This document shows, one piece after another, positions 8,305-34,344 of a stretch of 64,000 nucleotides of DNA. The stretch lies in the NCBI RefSeq assembly GCF_032678705.1, contig NZ_JAVTSS010000001.1, positions 1,674,001-1,738,000 of the forward strand, given 5' to 3'. Position 1 is the stretch's first letter; every line of letters starts with the position of its first letter. This DNA comes from Pedobacter frigiditerrae (GTDB lineage: Bacteria > Bacteroidota > Bacteroidia > Sphingobacteriales > Sphingobacteriaceae). Both the position numbers and the translations under genes were made by a program. The notes below the pieces were generated by a model. The model had not been told where the DNA came from. It searched no databases and worked only from the letters and a program-made list of their open reading frames with translations.

Positions 8305-10764
8305 TTAGAACTTAAAGGTGATACCTGCTGCAACAGTTCTTGGTAATTGAGCACTTAGTGTACCCTGTCCAGTAAAATAACGTTCGTCTGTTAAGTTGTC
8401 TACTTTTACCCCAATTCGATATTTTGGTTGATCATAAAATAGTGTTGTTGTTACCAATGTGTAGCTTGGTAGCGTGAATACGCCTGTTACTAATGAATTC
8501 CCTGTTAGGTGTTTTCCAATGTAGTTTAATCCTGTTCCTATACCTAATCCTTTTAAGTTGCCAGATGGGATAGCATAACTGATCCATGAATTAATTAATG
8601 TAGCAGGGCCTGCCGAAGCTGGACGTCTTCCCTCTAGTGCTAAGGTTGATTTTGTAAGCTTACTATCATTATAACTATAGCCAGCAATAATATTAAGCCC
8701 ATCAATAGGGTTTGCAATTAATTCAAACTCTACTCCTTTGCTCTTCTGTGTTCCATTTTGCAAGGTAACAATGTAATTCGTACCACTTACATTCACTTCT
8801 TCTGTACGTGTCATGTTATCAACCTCGATGTTATAATAACTTGCCGTAAAGCTAAGTCTTCCTTGAAAAAGATCTGTTTTAACACCACCTTCATACTGAT
8901 TGGCTTGTTGTGGTTTCAAAGTACCTGAAACATTAGAACCTGCTGGTTGAGTAACTGGTGGCACATTCGCAAATCCATTCATGTAATTTCCGAATACCGA
9001 GATGCGATCAGGTAGTATTTGATATACAAGCCCTAACTTTGGAGATACAGCAGTTTGCTCATATTTCGAATTAACCACTATTTGGTTAGTTGCCTGATTT
9101 AGTATACCACGGTTCTGAAAACGATCAATGCGTAAACTTAGCATCGCTGTTAATCTATTGGTTAAGCTCAATACATCAGAAGCATAAGCACTGTAGATAT
9201 TTGCTTTAGTTGCATTTTTTGTAGGTGCGGCTGTACTGGCAGCTAATCTAGCTTCTACCGCTGCACGAGAGATTTTCACATAGTTTACATCAGCAGGATT
9301 ACGACCACTAACATTATCAAATACGATATAGGGAGAATTATCATTGTTGATAGTTTGGTTCAAATAATCAAGACCAACCACCATTCTATTGCGCAAGCCA
9401 ACAACCTTAAAATCGCCGATGAAATTCTGTTGAATATCAGTGGTCGTGTTTACGGTGTTTTGTAATGAAACGTTACGTTCAAGCATTTCATCGCTGGTAG
9501 CACCTCTTAAGAATGAATAGATATAAAATCCATCAGAACGACGTGAGTTTGCAGAATAAATTGTCTGAGAAGTCCAACTATCAGATAGTTTGTAATTAAT
9601 TTGGCCCTTAATGTTCATCGTAGGGTTTTTCATCACTAAATCATTACTTGTAAAAGAACGTTTCCAGTCGAAGTTTAATTCTTCAGGTGTAGTAGCAATA
9701 TATGGTCTTACCCTATTCAGGAAAATTGTTGAAGGACTGGTACCTTCTAGTGAATAGAAACCTGCCGTTAAGCTAATGTTCAGTTTTTCACTTGCACGAT
9801 ATTCTAAAGTAGGTGCAACAAAGATAGAACGTTTAAAACCTGCATCTTGGAAACTACCCTGGTTCTGATAAGCCGCATTTAGTCGGAAAAGCAGTTTTTT
9901 ATCTGCCTTTACTGGTCCATAGATATCTGCACTTAAACGATTAAGGCCATAACTACCAGTGGTAAAGTTTACCTCCCCTCCTAGCGTGTCTAGTGGTTTT
10001 TTGGTTACAATGTTTATTAATCCGCCAAAGGATACCACTGCACCGCCGAAAAGCGTACCTGATGGCCCTTTGATAAGTTCAACTCGCTCTATGTTTGCAG
10101 GTTCTATTTCTCCATTAGTTTGCGCCGGAACACCATCTACAAATGCTGCCTCTGTACGAAAACCCCTCATGGTATAAAAAGAAGCACCATCACTATTAAT
10201 CCCTCTATTATTCTGTATTTTGTATACTCCTGGAGAATTTTTTAATGATAAGCTGAATTCAGTAACCATTTGCTCTGTAAGTAGTGTTTTAGGAATGGTA
10301 GTATAAACCTGCGGGTTTTCTAAATTACCTAGTGGCATCTTGGCGGAGGTGGTTGTTTTTTTTACCGAAAACTTGTTGGTACTTCCTCCATTAACCACAA
10401 CCTCTTCCAATTGTTGGTTGCTTTCTGAAAGGGTGAAGTCTTGGGTAGATGTTTCCCCTTCAGCAATTATCACCTGACGTTGTTGAGGTTCAAGACCAAT
10501 ATAACTGGCTATAAGCGTAAAACTACCACTTTTGATGTCTTTAATGATATAATTTCCTTTGGCATCTACCTGAGCTGATTTTCCACCTTTAATGGCTACC
10601 GTTACAAATTCACCTGGTTTACCGTCACTTGTCTTAACGGTTCCTTTAATAATGGAGGTTCCCGTAGTCTGCTGAGCAAAGGAAACCAAGGGGCCAAATA
10701 AAAGGCAAATGGCCAAAATGGCTATAAATGTGTGTGTGTTCTTTGGGGTACGAATTTTGTACAT
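8305..10764 (-). CDS. TonB-dependent siderophore-type receptor
   Basis: An 819-residue outer-membrane receptor. It has a signal peptide ending in SFAQQ, a carboxypeptidase-regulatory-like domain (IIKGTVKTSDGKPGEF, about residues 38-115), a plug domain with MRGFRTEAAFVDGVP and ERVELIKGPSGTLFG (about 195-240), and a C-terminal barrel ending in AAGITFKF. The plug and overall length resemble ferric-siderophore receptors of the FhuA/FpvA type and not SusC. The partner PepSY gene follows after 3 bp. It probably imports a ferric siderophore or a related iron chelate; the ligand cannot be read from the sequence. A stem-loop lies in its leader region. Confidence 0.9.
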   Translation of the reverse strand: MYKIRTPKNTHTFIAILAICLLFGPLVSFAQQTTGTSIIKGTVKTSDGKPGEFVTVAIKGGKSAQVDAKGNYIIKDIKSGSFTLIASYIGLEPQQRQVIIAEGETSTQDFTLSESNQQLEEVVVNGGSTNKFSVKKTTTSAKMPLGNLENPQVYTTIPKTLLTEQMVTEFSLSLKNSPGVYKIQNNRGINSDGASFYTMRGFRTEAAFVDGVPAQTNGEIEPANIERVELIKGPSGTLFGGAVVSFGGLINIVTKKPLDTLGGEVNFTTGSYGLNRLSADIYGPVKADKKLLFRLNAAYQNQGSFQDAGFKRSIFVAPTLEYRASEKLNISLTAGFYSLEGTSPSTIFLNRVRPYIATTPEELNFDWKRSFTSNDLVMKNPTMNIKGQINYKLSDSWTSQTIYSANSRRSDGFYIYSFLRGATSDEMLERNVSLQNTVNTTTDIQQNFIGDFKVVGLRNRMVVGLDYLNQTINNDNSPYIVFDNVSGRNPADVNYVKISRAAVEARLAASTAAPTKNATKANIYSAYASDVLSLTNRLTAMLSLRIDRFQNRGILNQATNQIVVNSKYEQTAVSPKLGLVYQILPDRISVFGNYMNGFANVPPVTQPAGSNVSGTLKPQQANQYEGGVKTDLFQGRLSFTASYYNIEVDNMTRTEEVNVSGTNYIVTLQNGTQKSKGVEFELIANPIDGLNIIAGYSYNDSKLTKSTLALEGRRPASAGPATLINSWISYAIPSGNLKGLGIGTGLNYIGKHLTGNSLVTGVFTLPSYTLVTTTLFYDQPKYRIGVKVDNLTDERYFTGQGTLSAQLPRTVAAGITFKF

Positions 10765-29891: not shown

Positions 29892-30755
29892 TTAAGGAAG
29901 AAATTTAGCATAACTAGCAGCATAAGCTTCGTTACGTGGCGCCAGTTGCGTAGCCAGTTTGTAATAATAAGCAGCATCAGTTAACAAATGATTCTCTTCT
30001 AGCATGAATGCTTTTAAATAGGCAGTTTCTGCAGGGCTTGTAGTAATTACATTAGCCAACACTTTATTACGCAATTTCTGATAAGCAACAGTATTTAAAA
30101 AGATAAACACTTTTTTATTCGCACTTTGCTCACCTTTGAAGTCCCAATAATACTTACCTGGTTTTTTTAGCTTTAAGGCAATAGAATCAAGCTTAGCGTA
30201 TTTAGCGGCCTTGCTCTTAAAAATCACATCACCATCTTGTGCGGCATTGTAAACTTCAACCTCGGCTATTCTACCTTGTTTCCAATAGAGTTTTAATGGA
30301 CCATTATTGTAATAAATCGTGTCGATATATAATTTCGAAAAGCTATTGCCCCTACTTACTGCACCATAAGTTTTCATATAAGACCTTGGGTCTTTATCTG
30401 GCGTTATGTGTTTATGCGCAAAAGAGTTCCAGATGTATTTAAAATAAGCTGTAGAAGCTGATGTACTTTGTTTGGCACAAGAAGGTAAATCGTTTACTGA
30501 TTTACTCATCTTGGTTTTTAACTGAACCACAGAGAAGTTTGCACAAACCAAAGCCAATTGTGTTTGATCTGGAATAGAAATCTGGTCTGTTTTATAAAGC
30601 TGGTCGCCCTTTTTAAGGATAACGGCTTTACCTAAAACTATTTTAGCTGCCTTGCCACTGTTATAAAAAACAACATAAGCAGGATCGTCTGCAAGTGATT
30701 GCAAACTGAAACAAATCAATAAGATGGGCAAAAGCCTAAAAATTTTACTAATCAT
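29892..30755 (-). CDS. Secreted FecR-like and TPR-like protein paired with CHASE2
   Basis: About 287 residues from MISKIFRLLPILLICF; the frame is open further upstream to 30833 but that part lies inside the CHASE2 gene and lacks a signal. A signal peptide ends near SLADDPAY. The next 80 residues (GKAVILKKGDQLYKTDQISI then TQLALVCANFSVVQL) resemble a FecR-type beta domain. The C-terminus (ETAYLKAFMLEENHLLTDAA then YYYKLATQLAPRNEAYA) looks like a TPR repeat. It would be periplasmic. Its start codon overlaps the CHASE2 stop by 8 bp (ATGATTAG), so translation is coupled. A role as partner or ligand-binding companion of CHASE2 is inferred from this and from FecR-CHASE2 association in other bacteria. 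Confidence 0.6.
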   Translation of the reverse strand: MISKIFRLLPILLICFSLQSLADDPAYVVFYNSGKAAKIVLGKAVILKKGDQLYKTDQISIPDQTQLALVCANFSVVQLKTKMSKSVNDLPSCAKQSTSASTAYFKYIWNSFAHKHITPDKDPRSYMKTYGAVSRGNSFSKLYIDTIYYNNGPLKLYWKQGRIAEVEVYNAAQDGDVIFKSKAAKYAKLDSIALKLKKPGKYYWDFKGEQSANKKVFIFLNTVAYQKLRNKVLANVITTSPAETAYLKAFMLEENHLLTDAAYYYKLATQLAPRNEAYAASYAKFLP

Positions 30756-31908
30756 GTTTGTGCGTAAAAATGGTTTTATATCCTTTTTTCTTATGTAACC
30801 AAGTAGCAAATGCCTCGTAGAAGTACAATACATCTACCGCTAAAATAATAGCAGCTAATGTAGCGGTCATGTTCATCTGCGTATCAAACTGATGGAAGAA
30901 CAACAATCCAATATACACAAAAAACACCGCCGAGATGATTTGCGCTATTTTAGCTAACAAATGAAACCAAATATGGTTGTCTAAATAATCCTTAATAAAT
31001 AATGACATGTGCAACCAGCAAAGCAAAAAGGCTATGCTCCACATCAACCAAGCTGGCATCCTATGTATATAGTCCTGATCTTGCACCATACCGATGATAT
31101 TAGCGTGTATAAAGACACCATTCATATCCGGCAATGCTCTACCAGTATATTTCTCGTTCATTGGTGTAAAGTGTTTATCCTCTACATCATTTACACTGTT
31201 AGAAACATAACCCAACAACACAATCTTATGAGCGAACACACTTGGAACTGCTTTGCCAGCAATTAAATCCATTCCATCAATAATTAAGTATTTATCCGCT
31301 TTGCGTTTGTAATTAATGATTTCTGTGGTGCTTTTGCGTTTTAAGATTCCTTTATAGTTATTAGGATCTGCAACTTTTAATACAGCAACAGCAAATGCAG
31401 GCACTTGTTCTTTTTTATCAACAGGCGTAAAATGCCTAATTACTCCTTCCTCCTGACCAACAAAATTGGCAAAACCTTTATTTGCACTTTGTTTATAGAA
31501 ATATCCTCTTCCACCTTGTGCATTGATATTATAGGCGCCTATTAATTTTTTATTGTTGCTAAACAGCTTTGATAATAGACTATCTCCAACTGCATCCTTT
31601 TTGTCATTAAACAAGATATCAACGCCTATTGCCTTTGGGTTTTGTGCATCAACAGCAACAATCATTGCCGCTATGTCTTGTCTATTACCTTGGCCAACAT
31701 TAACAATCACGATATTGGTATCTGTTGGCGTATTTTCGTTTTTATGCATTTTAGCATAGGCTAAATCATTATAATCGAAATCGCTCAGCGCCAAATGAAT
31801 AGGATCCAAGAAATGGGTATTGATAGGAATAAAAGAGAAAAAGCCCATCACTATAAATACGGCGATAGTGGCAAATAAAGTGTCTCTTTTAAAAAGGTAT
31901 TTAAACAT
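30748..31908 (-). CDS. CHASE2-domain membrane protein without an output domain
   Basis: A 386-residue inner-membrane protein. One membrane helix (about residues 12-30, FATIAVFIVMGFFSFIPI) precedes an extracytoplasmic CHASE2 domain (about 40-275), recognised by IVIVNVGQGNRQDIAAMI, KAIGVDILF, KIVLLGYV and DKHFTPMN...GVFIHANII. Three membrane helices follow (about 283-375). The usual kinase, cyclase or GGDEF output module after CHASE2 is missing; only about 15 basic residues remain. It is the first gene of a coupled pair with a FecR-like secreted protein. It may act as a scaffold or sensor that signals through another protein. A candidate -7 element (minus TATTTTTG, 32011-32018) lies about 100 bp upstream. 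Confidence 0.8.
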   Translation of the reverse strand: MFKYLFKRDTLFATIAVFIVMGFFSFIPINTHFLDPIHLALSDFDYNDLAYAKMHKNENTPTDTNIVIVNVGQGNRQDIAAMIVAVDAQNPKAIGVDILFNDKKDAVGDSLLSKLFSNNKKLIGAYNINAQGGRGYFYKQSANKGFANFVGQEEGVIRHFTPVDKKEQVPAFAVAVLKVADPNNYKGILKRKSTTEIINYKRKADKYLIIDGMDLIAGKAVPSVFAHKIVLLGYVSNSVNDVEDKHFTPMNEKYTGRALPDMNGVFIHANIIGMVQDQDYIHRMPAWLMWSIAFLLCWLHMSLFIKDYLDNHIWFHLLAKIAQIISAVFFVYIGLLFFHQFDTQMNMTATLAAIILAVDVLYFYEAFATWLHKKKGYKTIFTHKHD

Positions 31909-32086
31909 GTTGTTGCAATTTGAAGGCTATTAAAATAGATTGTGCCGCAAGATAGGATTTTATGCTTTTATGGGTAAATTTTAAAGCTAAAATACTTATT
32001 AATAATCCTACAAAAATACCTAGAAGTGGGTATTTTTTTTGGTGAAAATAGGCTGTAGTTTTAGCTAAACTTTAAAGAACAAAAAA

Positions 32087-32491
32087 ATGAAAACAAAAAA
32101 CTTAATTGTATGCGCAATGATCGCATTTATGGCAGTAGCATTCTCATCAACCAGTGCGTTTGCTCAAAAGACAGTAGAAGTTAAATCTACAGCAGCTGTT
32201 AAATCTAGAGGTGCGAACCCTAAAATTAAAGTAGATGCGCAAGCTTCTGATGCTAAACCAGTAGTTAAATCTCGTGGTGCTGCTTGTAGCGTTAAATTTG
32301 ACAACTACACTGGACTTTATGTAAAAGTTTACGTTGATGGTTACTACAAAGGTACTGTAAGTCCTTGGAGTGCTGGAACAGTTACTGTTGGTGATGGTTA
32401 TACTACTATTTACTGCGTAAGTGCGGGTGGTACTAGAGAGTGGAATGCAAGTGGAGATTGTAGAACATCATACGTTTACACGTTGAAATAA
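32087..32491 (+). CDS. Small secreted protein, paralogue 1 of a tandem pair
   Basis: A 134-residue exported protein of unknown function. The signal peptide ends in SAFAQ. The N-terminal linker (about residues 27-65) repeats the motif VKSRGA twice. The C-terminal domain of about 70 residues has FDNYTGLYVKVYVDGYYKGT, SPW, and VSAGGTREW...ASGDCRT. Two cysteines bracketing the domain (ACSVKF and GDCRT) may form a disulphide; a third (YCVSAG) is not shared with the paralogue. The strand pattern and VDGYYKG loop recall PEGA-type surface beta domains, by eye only. It diverges from the CHASE2 gene, 178 bp away. Confidence 0.65.
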   Translation: MKTKNLIVCAMIAFMAVAFSSTSAFAQKTVEVKSTAAVKSRGANPKIKVDAQASDAKPVVKSRGAACSVKFDNYTGLYVKVYVDGYYKGTVSPWSAGTVTVGDGYTTIYCVSAGGTREWNASGDCRTSYVYTLK

Positions 32492-32514
32492 ACGAGTTCG
32501 CTCTCAACATAAAG

Positions 32515-32546
32515 AAGTCCCCGCCTAATGGTTGGGACTTTTTTAT
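32515..32546 (+). terminator. Intrinsic terminator between the small secreted paralogues
   Basis: Arms AAGTCCC and GGGACTT with an inner CC/GG pair and a TTTTTT tail. A diverged copy of the same segment follows the second paralogue (about 33000-33030), where the stem no longer pairs well. Confidence 0.75.
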
Positions 32547-32583
32547 TGTTAAATTATTGGGAGATTATTTTTAAATTAAAACC

Positions 32584-32976
32584 ATGAAGAATAACTTACA
32601 AATCTGGTTAACTGTTATCATGATGCTTTTAGGAGCTAATGTTTTTGGTCAGCAAATAAAGAAAGTTGAGATACAATCTACAGCGGTTGTAAAATCAAGA
32701 GGTGCAAATCCAAAGATTAAAAGCGACATTCCTGCTGTTGATGTTCCTATTGCAAAAGCCAGAGGTGGTTGTACCATAAAATTTGATAATTACACTGGAC
32801 TTTACATCAGAGTATATGTTGATGGATATTATAAAGGTACAATTAGTCCTTGGGGTAATGCTACAGTCACTACAACCGATGGATATAGTTCAGTATATTT
32901 AGTAAGTGCAGGTGGTACTAGGGAATGGACAGCCAGTGGCGATTGCAGGACTATTTGGAATTATACGCTGAAATAA
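32584..32976 (+). CDS. Small secreted protein, paralogue 2 of a tandem pair
   Basis: A 130-residue exported protein, clearly a duplicate of the gene upstream. The signal peptide ends near NVFGQ. The linker again has VKSRGANPKIK and a second, changed copy (AKARGG). The domain has CTIKFDNYTGLYIRVYVDGY, SPWGN, YLVSAGGTREW and ASGDCRT, ending WNYTLK. The two cysteines in CTIKF and GDCRT are kept, which supports a disulphide; the third cysteine of paralogue 1 is Leu here. Function is unknown. The high domain identity against a less similar signal peptide suggests selection on the exported part. Confidence 0.65.
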   Translation: MKNNLQIWLTVIMMLLGANVFGQQIKKVEIQSTAVVKSRGANPKIKSDIPAVDVPIAKARGGCTIKFDNYTGLYIRVYVDGYYKGTISPWGNATVTTTDGYSSVYLVSAGGTREWTASGDCRTIWNYTLK

Positions 32977-33200
32977 ACAATTTGCTCTAAACATGATAAG
33001 TACCCGCCCCATTGGTTGGATTTTTTTATTACTATATATCTTCATTGTGCGGGATGTGCCCATTCGATTAGGCATTTTAAACCGTATTGCATTCTTATTT
33101 ACCTAGCGAACGCATTACGATTGCCGGTCGAGCTGGCAATGACGAAACGCATATTTCTAGCCGAAAACGATAATCTGCGAATCTGCGGCTTTACCATGGC
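32977..33200. other. Intergenic segment with decayed terminator copy and dispersed repeat
   Basis: After the second paralogue comes a diverged copy of the first paralogue's terminator region. At about 33111-33150 there is a repeat with hairpin arms ATTGCC (33120-33125) and GGCAAT (33135-33140) followed by GACGAA, related on the minus strand to the GTCATTGC family found elsewhere in the window. A 70-residue open frame crosses it and is not believed. Confidence 0.5.
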
Positions 33201-34232: not shown

Positions 34233-34281
34233 AGTATTTATATTTTCCCTAAGGTAAGTAAATTTTAGGATTTAAAGACTT

Positions 34282-34344
34282 CGTCATTGAGAAAGCCTGC
34301 TCCGTCATTGCGAGGTCGATTTTTCATAGCCCGTGGCAATCTGC
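34282..34344 (+). repeat. Dispersed CGTCATTGCGAGG-type element
   Basis: CGTCATTGCGAGGTCGA starts at 34303 and the element ends in GGCAATCTGC. A truncated first copy, CGTCATTGAGAAAGCCTGC, precedes it. Related copies on the minus strand lie at 34991-35047 and 48381-48427. Confidence 0.65.

Follow-up and report, generated by a model that had tools for sequence, protein, structure and literature searches.

Small, predicted secreted proteins of Bacteroidota share an Arg-Gly motif with a co-occurring secreted caspase and are candidates for its substrates

Cysteine proteases of the families C11 and C14 both belong to clan CD. Caspase homologues are common in bacteria, and to our knowledge dedicated natural substrates of these enzymes are hardly known. 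Better described are the systems of other secreted proteases: in Bacteroidales, the secreted protein Fab1 is reported to be activated by a secreted clan CD protease of the fragipain/doripain type (PMC8406203), and for BcpT an activation of the fragipain/doripain type is described at two LTR sites (PMC9308784). The type V pilins FimA, Mfa1 and Mfa4 are exported beta-sandwich proteins with an N-terminal extension that is cut by gingipain, an Arg-specific cysteine protease, after an arginine at position 43-54 and that forms strands of the precursor (PMC4789730), while the C10 proteases of Bacteroides are transcriptionally coupled to staphostatin-like proteins of 116-138 residues (PMC3462683). As for the caspases themselves, animal enzymes are processed in the p20-p10 linker (PMC5756287), non-animal C14 enzymes (C14B) cut after Arg or Lys by means of an acidic pocket (PMC5756287, PMC6426788), a trypsin-like domain and DUF4384 are found with caspase domains in an alphaproteobacterial clade (PMC6426788), and caspase and CHASE2 domains occur in one Trichodesmium protein (PMC3501461, PMC2853523). 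Extracellular metacaspases have also already been discussed. In the titles, abstract beginnings and text passages of the open-access PMC literature covered by our search, we found no description of the small protein family reported here or of its tie to a caspase.

Here, we analysed a window of 64,000 nucleotides from a Pedobacter genome (the window being this whole stretch), in which two small proteins are encoded in tandem (Table 1). The original prediction regarded these as secreted paralogues with different signal peptides and a conserved exported domain with two cysteines, encoded divergently from a CHASE2 gene, with a doubled VKSRGA motif and a terminator region duplicated along with the gene, and all of this was borne out. 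Both reading frames are open and their products are 60% identical, with conservation in the exported part and different signal peptides. The two domains have two cysteines in common (C67 and C125 of copy 1, C63 and C121 of copy 2), and copy 1 has two extra ones (C110 in the domain, C9 in the signal peptide). We infer that both proteins are exported. Copy 1 contains VKSRGA twice, starting at residues 38 and 60; copy 2 contains it once, starting at residue 36, and reads AKARGG at the second place. In-register repeats of 186 nt (74%) and 64 nt (78%) link the copies at a spacing of 483-491 nt, and a 40-nt element 3' of the genes is repeated at 75% in the same register; neither of the two 3' hairpins was among the calls of a simple terminator scan. 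The Pfam match of the CHASE2 gene on the opposite strand is real.

Table 1. Features of the tandem genes and of their divergent neighbours, in window coordinates
Feature	Position	Strand	Remarks
CHASE2 partner	29892..30755	-	Likely start Met27 of listed ORF 29892-30833
CHASE2 membrane protein	30748..31908	-	PF05226, E 3e-24; also near family members outside the genus
Inverted repeat, 14 nt (AAAATACC..GGTATTTT)	32007..32042	+	Divergent upstream region of CHASE2 and copy 1
Copy 1	32087..32491	+	134 aa; signal peptide about 1-26 (assigned by eye), N-segment 27-50, linker 51-63, beta-domain 64-134
Copy 1, first Arg-Gly, R41-G42 (VKSRGANP)	32207..32212	+	Column is Arg-Gly in 30/40 family rows
Copy 1, second Arg-Gly, R63-G64 (VKSRGA)	32273..32278	+	Directly before beta-domain; lower-confidence linker in model
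Terminator-like hairpin 3' of copy 1	32515..32554	+	T-run; -24.8 kcal/mol, z -6.4
Copy 2	32584..32976	+	130 aa, paralogue; beta-domain 61-130
Copy 2, first Arg-Gly, R39-G40	32698..32703	+	
Copy 2, second Arg-Gly, R60-G61	32761..32766	+	
Decayed duplicate hairpin 3' of copy 2	32998..33037	+	z +0.3

The dN/dS values between the window genome and P. frigiditerrae, 0.07 (copy 1) and 0.14 (copy 2), show that both are under purifying selection and are thus genes rather than chance reading frames. The dS of copy 1 is unusually low (0.15, compared to 0.53-1.04 for four other genes). With a codon adaptation of 0.726, copy 1 ranks highest among the 43 window ORFs of at least 100 aa, next to a median of 0.717 in the ribosomal cluster and 0.620 for copy 2; the reference comprises all plus-strand ORFs below 460 aa in a 19.5-kb ribosomal cluster, which were taken mechanically, so that a few are not ribosomal. 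This codon usage suggests a high expression of copy 1. The inverted repeat upstream is largely conserved in the five Pedobacter loci aligned and could serve as an operator or attenuator. At 33100-33150 and 34280-34325, the window contains short sequences of the GTCATTGCGAGG type between genes, which are perhaps repeats dispersed in this genome.

As the original prediction had it, no known family was recognised: searches of Pfam, NCBIfam, PADLOC and PDB sequences gave no family match for either protein. With a profile built from seven relatives, the proteins were detected in 6 of the 301 genomes searched at the level of the taxonomic family and in 17 of 345 genomes of the class Bacteroidia, spread over 11 of 177 genera. 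One of these 17, G525, counts as family-bearing here and in the Fisher tests below, although its match (E 1.7e-4, in a 649-aa frame) is probably spurious and the site itself showed no recognisable family member; it is excluded from the 21 genomes on which the counts of proximity, trypsin-like proteases and CHASE2 are based. Nineteen family loci were found in a scan of named genomes, including Pedobacter frigiditerrae, P. planticolens, P. polaris, Spirosoma sordidisoli, S. lacussanchae and Bacteroidota metagenome bins. In one genome (G135), two identical family genes lie 1,052 bases apart (L057:9211-9642 and 10263-10694), which is either a fresh tandem duplication or an assembly effect.

Members consist of a signal peptide (by eye), in most cases an RGANPNIK theme, a linker, an Arg-Gly pair and a C-terminal domain of the pattern C-x-V-x-F-D-N-x-T-G-Y-Y-...-Y-V-D-G. 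Of 39 rows (the truncated L053 was left out of this count), 34 have both cysteines, four have neither and one has a single, unaligned cysteine; such a both-or-neither pattern is expected of a disulphide, which probably holds the beta-domain together. In the AlphaFold2 model of copy 1, residues 66-134 form a seven-stranded beta-sandwich, with a pLDDT of 86-95 for the blocks within 71-134; residues 31-50 reach 88-91, a short strand is formed by residues 28-32, and the linker (51-70) remains at 66-71. The proposed likeness to PEGA domains is not supported. No PEGA match (PF08308) was obtained among 23 family members at E<=0.1, nor for either window protein at E<=10, a threshold at which program filters drop most hits above 0.1, and the structure search gave just weak matches to common beta-sandwiches. 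The best of these (pVHL, HGSNAT and AlgF-like sandwiches; Foldseek E 9e-3, Z 6.7) we take as a common arrangement of strands that speaks against no particular family.

Other database hits were set aside. DUF6520, EF0750_LPXTG, phrog_33413 and similar entries of Pfam, NCBIfam and PHROGs were matched weakly by no more than 4 of the 23 members, for the most part in the signal peptide and far under the cut-offs where these exist. The PDB hits of phmmer were designed Cake propellers, matched over 25-26 residues (best E 0.0013), of which no stretch passes alone, and the family profile found nothing among PDB sequences at E<=1. The plasmid search with copy 1 gave no match, and the lone viral hit (L134), which spans 46 residues of the query and lies in a protein of 564 aa lacking an R-G linker, we take as chance. 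In PADLOC, the small proteins, CHASE2 and the CHASE2 partner matched nothing; the models matched by the proteases of the loci were caspase, RT-Protease and LmuA.

Is there a gene that accompanies the family? By clustering of the neighbouring ORFs, we found a recurrent class, CASPa, which combines a Peptidase C14 domain with a C-terminal DUF4384-like domain. PF00656 was over its cut-off in all ten CASPa scanned, and DUF4384 was found in the same ten at E<=0.0035, in six over its cut-off; for the CASPa of the window genome, PF00656 gave E 8.5e-18. A signal peptide, read by eye, points to secretion. The His, the Cys and both acidic pocket Asp are kept in 34 of 34 aligned CASPa, the pocket residues being assigned by alignment and by the TbMC2 positions. 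The 34 rows are 25 CASPa of less than 800 aa and nine further ones; excluded were three longer CASPa in which no D-x-CHSG was found (kept in the motif count), L117 and L119 (both with Cys and His) and three CASPa that are partial or truncated. Near family genes, we also observed long CASPa-like proteins of 848-1264 aa (L038:1311-3857, L043:2138-5932 and L045:1576-5370) with [STA]RG and without a recognisable D-x-CHSG active site, possibly inactive partners.

The small proteins are tied to secreted caspases by gene order and by co-occurrence. With a CASPa-specific profile that starts at residue 320 and thus lacks the C14 domain (E<=1e-10), CASPa was detected in 16 of 17 family-bearing genomes and in 7 of 328 other genomes of the class (Fisher p 3e-21); the profiles were seeded from linked loci, and without the nine seed genomes the numbers are 7 of 8 and 7 of 328 (p 3e-10). 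PF00656 as such is present in 17/17 versus 115/328 genomes (p 4e-8). All 21 family-bearing genomes, five of them from outside the class draw, have a CASPa match, in G619 and G438 as pieces at contig ends only. A PF00656 match lies within 10 kb of a family gene in 13 of the 21 genomes, with 0.45 expected. At the level of loci, CASPa is present in 22 of 36, and in 13 of 36 it is the immediate neighbour, encoded on the same strand at a distance of 35-193 nt. Six loci were dropped from this map as copies (L066, L069, L078, L081, L082 and L083, of L036, L037, L039, L042, L044 and L047, respectively), and the locus counts are not independent, since near-duplicates remain (L079/L080, L070/L071, L073/L074/L077/L039 and L048-L050). 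In P. planticolens, one ORF separates the family gene and CASPa; in the window genome (contig 1, ~948 kb), P. frigiditerrae and P. polaris, CASPa is unlinked, and in four other genomes the unlinked CASPa adjoins a trypsin-like gene. Elsewhere in the window genome, two adjacent caspase-TPR genes (L085:1211-7114; 1069 and 865 aa) resemble proteins found near the family in other genomes.

At the sequence level, the doubled VKSRGA is an instance of a more general motif, [ST]RG, which marks both the family and its partner protease, a point that the original prediction had missed. The motif occurs 58 times in 40 small proteins (10.5 per 1000 aa) and 91 times in 28 CASPa (4.4 per 1000 aa), i.e. about 40-fold and 18-fold over the 384 other ORFs of the same loci (30 occurrences, 0.25 per 1000 aa), the expectation after shuffling being 2.3 for the small proteins and 7.0 for CASPa; as the rows are related, this excess is descriptive and not a probability. 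Other caspase and TPR classes show 0.4-0.5 per 1000 aa, and no [ST]RG was found in the 10 trypsin-like, 10 CHASE2 and 8 small TPR proteins of the loci. Raised levels were also found for two further groups, namely the CHASE2 partner, with five occurrences in 9 proteins (1.8 per 1000), and cluster c8, with three in 4 proteins (2.3 per 1000); the single scanned member of c8 has no Pfam match. These two may be further targets, or the motif may not be exclusive to the pair of family and CASPa.

The positions of the motif would suit processing sites. All 40 rows of the small family have the Arg-Gly that immediately precedes the beta-domain. Of 25 CASPa rows, 24 have an Arg-Gly after the catalytic Cys (CHSGTATRG etc.), 19 of these as [ST]RG, and other Arg-Gly sites of CASPa lie often before p10 (e.g. 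ASRGNDKDLATYVVVSAA) or in the tail. In controls, no Arg-Gly was found at this place in the eight other locus caspases in which the place could be found, nor in four other caspases of the window genome. The model of the P. planticolens CASPa has a mean pLDDT of 65.8, and segments below 50 account for about a quarter of its chain; five of its six [STA]RG lie in these segments. The CASPa of seven class genomes without the family also have [STA]RG; thus, the motif would be the caspase's own, of which the small protein carries a copy. Beside CASPa in two family-less genomes, we noted probably exported proteins of 236 and 210 aa with an ARG motif (L117:2243-2953 and L115:4186-4818), which may be alternative CASPa substrates.

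Based on the shared motif and the co-occurrence, we propose that the small proteins are secreted proproteins and substrates of CASPa, a reading to which we assign a probability of about 0.5. A protein of the copy 1/2 type would be made in quantity and exported; CASPa would activate itself by cutting the R-G sites around its own p20/p10 loop, with the trypsin-like protease starting the cascade where it is present, and activated CASPa would then cut the small protein after the invariant R63 and, in many members, also after R41. A 71-residue beta-domain would thereby be separated from the N-terminal segment and could then serve extracellularly as an abundant effector, a signal or a building block. 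Both the cleavage by CASPa and the activity of the released domain are what we infer from the sequences. Against this speaks that a C14 match within 10 kb is lacking in 8 of 21 family-bearing genomes, including the window genome, P. frigiditerrae and P. polaris, that 14 of 36 loci are without CASPa, and that R41-G42, which lies in a well-ordered part of the model, is missing in 10 of 40 rows. In addition, since CASPa has the motif also in genomes without the family, the motif may serve the caspase alone and be shared for another reason, e.g. a common binding partner.

The main rival is that the small protein is a co-secreted inhibitor or bait, whose R-G loop binds the caspase in a substrate-like manner and keeps it off until needed. 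Staphostatins hold other cysteine proteases inactive by substrate-like binding. Small size, beta-fold, gene adjacency and the invariant R-G before the beta-domain fit this idea, and the small staphostatin-like proteins coupled to Bacteroides C10 proteases (PMC3462683) provide a precedent. However, the codon adaptation of copy 1 compared to that of CASPa (0.607) suggests an excess of the small protein over the enzyme, 14 of 36 loci have no CASPa, and two R-G sites in the linker resemble cut sites more than one rigid reactive loop. On balance, we regard inhibition as unlikely.

The original prediction suggested a possible surface or matrix protein, which would then be abundant and not cut by the caspase. 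Its export signal, disulphide-like cysteine pair and tandem duplication, as well as a codon adaptation of copy 1 like that of the ribosomal cluster and suggestive of high expression, are consistent with such a role, but the motif shared with CASPa and the co-occurrence are left unexplained, and none of the 40 rows has a lipobox or, by eye, another anchor; we thus consider it quite unlikely. A related speculation, by analogy with pilins, combines abundance with cleavage: the caspase would cut the linker of a beta-sandwich protein whose N-segment is docked on the domain, and the groove opened for the next subunit would allow the assembly of an extracellular fibre or matrix, as has been proposed for gingipain and the type V pilins. 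The R-G at the matching place and the N-terminal strand of the model (28-32) would suit such a scheme, whereas the VxV theme of this strand is missing in several members, which weakens the idea and makes it a long shot.

Apart from CASPa, other neighbours recur in the 36 loci: CHASE2 in 10, the CHASE2 partner in 9, a small TPR protein in 8, a trypsin-like protease (Trypsin_2) in 10, larger caspases with WD40 repeats in 9, and TPR proteins, some with C14, in 6. One of the ten trypsin-like proteins is an apparently decayed 93-aa remnant that adjoins a family gene (L056:9292-9573, G004). In the 21 family-bearing genomes, the trypsin-like protease is full length in 12 and split in one; the remaining eight, to which the four family-bearing genomes of the window's genus belong, give only partial hits of at most 140 bits and nevertheless keep the motif. 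Since these eight lack a full-length copy and the protease itself has no [ST]RG, it was rejected as a general sole reader of the motif; it may act upstream where it is present. The constant partner of the family is CASPa.

In the window, the listed start of the CHASE2 partner overlaps CHASE2 by 86 nt, and an internal Met (30755) would instead give an overlap of 8 nt and a signal peptide. The partner is probably exported with its likely start at this Met27, and the short overlap suggests translational coupling. Some of its relatives show a weak C-terminal TPR, and a scan of six members for FecR (PF04773) gave no hit at E<=0.1. It carries one SRG (residues 160-162, window 30348-30356), and [STA]RG is present at a similar place in 6 of 9 members; the partner may be another caspase substrate. 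Could the small protein be a ligand or sensory subunit of CHASE2 and its partner, with the caspase link secondary? The four family-bearing genomes of the window's genus, each with a single CHASE2 match beside the family gene or within ~5 kb, the CHASE2 genes in the loci, the motif of the partner and the metacaspase-CHASE2 fusion in Trichodesmium (PMC3501461) would favour this, but a CHASE2 match is absent from 9 of the 21 family-bearing genomes, compared to a CASPa match in 21 of 21, which renders it very unlikely.

If the proposed substrate reading is correct, a small, soluble protein that co-occurs with an enzyme and carries its putative processing motif at an invariant position provides a concrete enzyme-substrate pair in culturable Pedobacter and Spirosoma, from a family that is new to Pfam, NCBIfam and PHROGs. 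Should the doubtful fibre version apply, a genetically linked caspase would be dedicated to building or signalling and not to killing.

How does this pair compare to the described systems? With staphostatin-like inhibitors, the family shares that a small beta-rich protein is encoded beside a cysteine protease; it differs in the protease family, the Arg-Gly motifs of the linker and the many unlinked copies. The PDB search gave no sequence match at E<=1 and the fold search no clear match, and a relationship may exist even so. CASPa resembles the C14B orthocaspases and metacaspases in PF00656, the His-Cys dyad and the acidic pocket residues, and differs from these by its signal peptide (by eye), DUF4384, the dense [ST]RG and the small partner protein. 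With type V pilins, the family would have in common an exported beta-sandwich whose N-segment is cut after Arg, at a conserved R-G before the body, whereas the small proteins have no lipobox cysteine (0 of 40 N-termini match a PROSITE-like pattern), one small domain instead of two, and a protease of another family; among 23 members, no match to the Pfam families of fimbrillins was found at E<=0.1. Because of the other protease family, the absent lipobox and the absent sequence match, the sequences place the family with neither the type V pilins nor the fragipain-type proteins. In contrast to the fragipain/doripain systems, the protease is a C14 enzyme with DUF4384 instead of a C11 enzyme, and the small protein has 130 aa and no sequence family. 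Both systems would nevertheless combine a secreted cysteine protease of clan CD with a secreted proprotein, as far as sequence can tell, and, as in the fragipain type, an Arg motif is common to the small protein and to the putative activation loop of CASPa itself. If this likeness extends to function, C14 caspases would join the C11 and C25 proteases of clan CD that mature secreted proteins in Bacteroidota.
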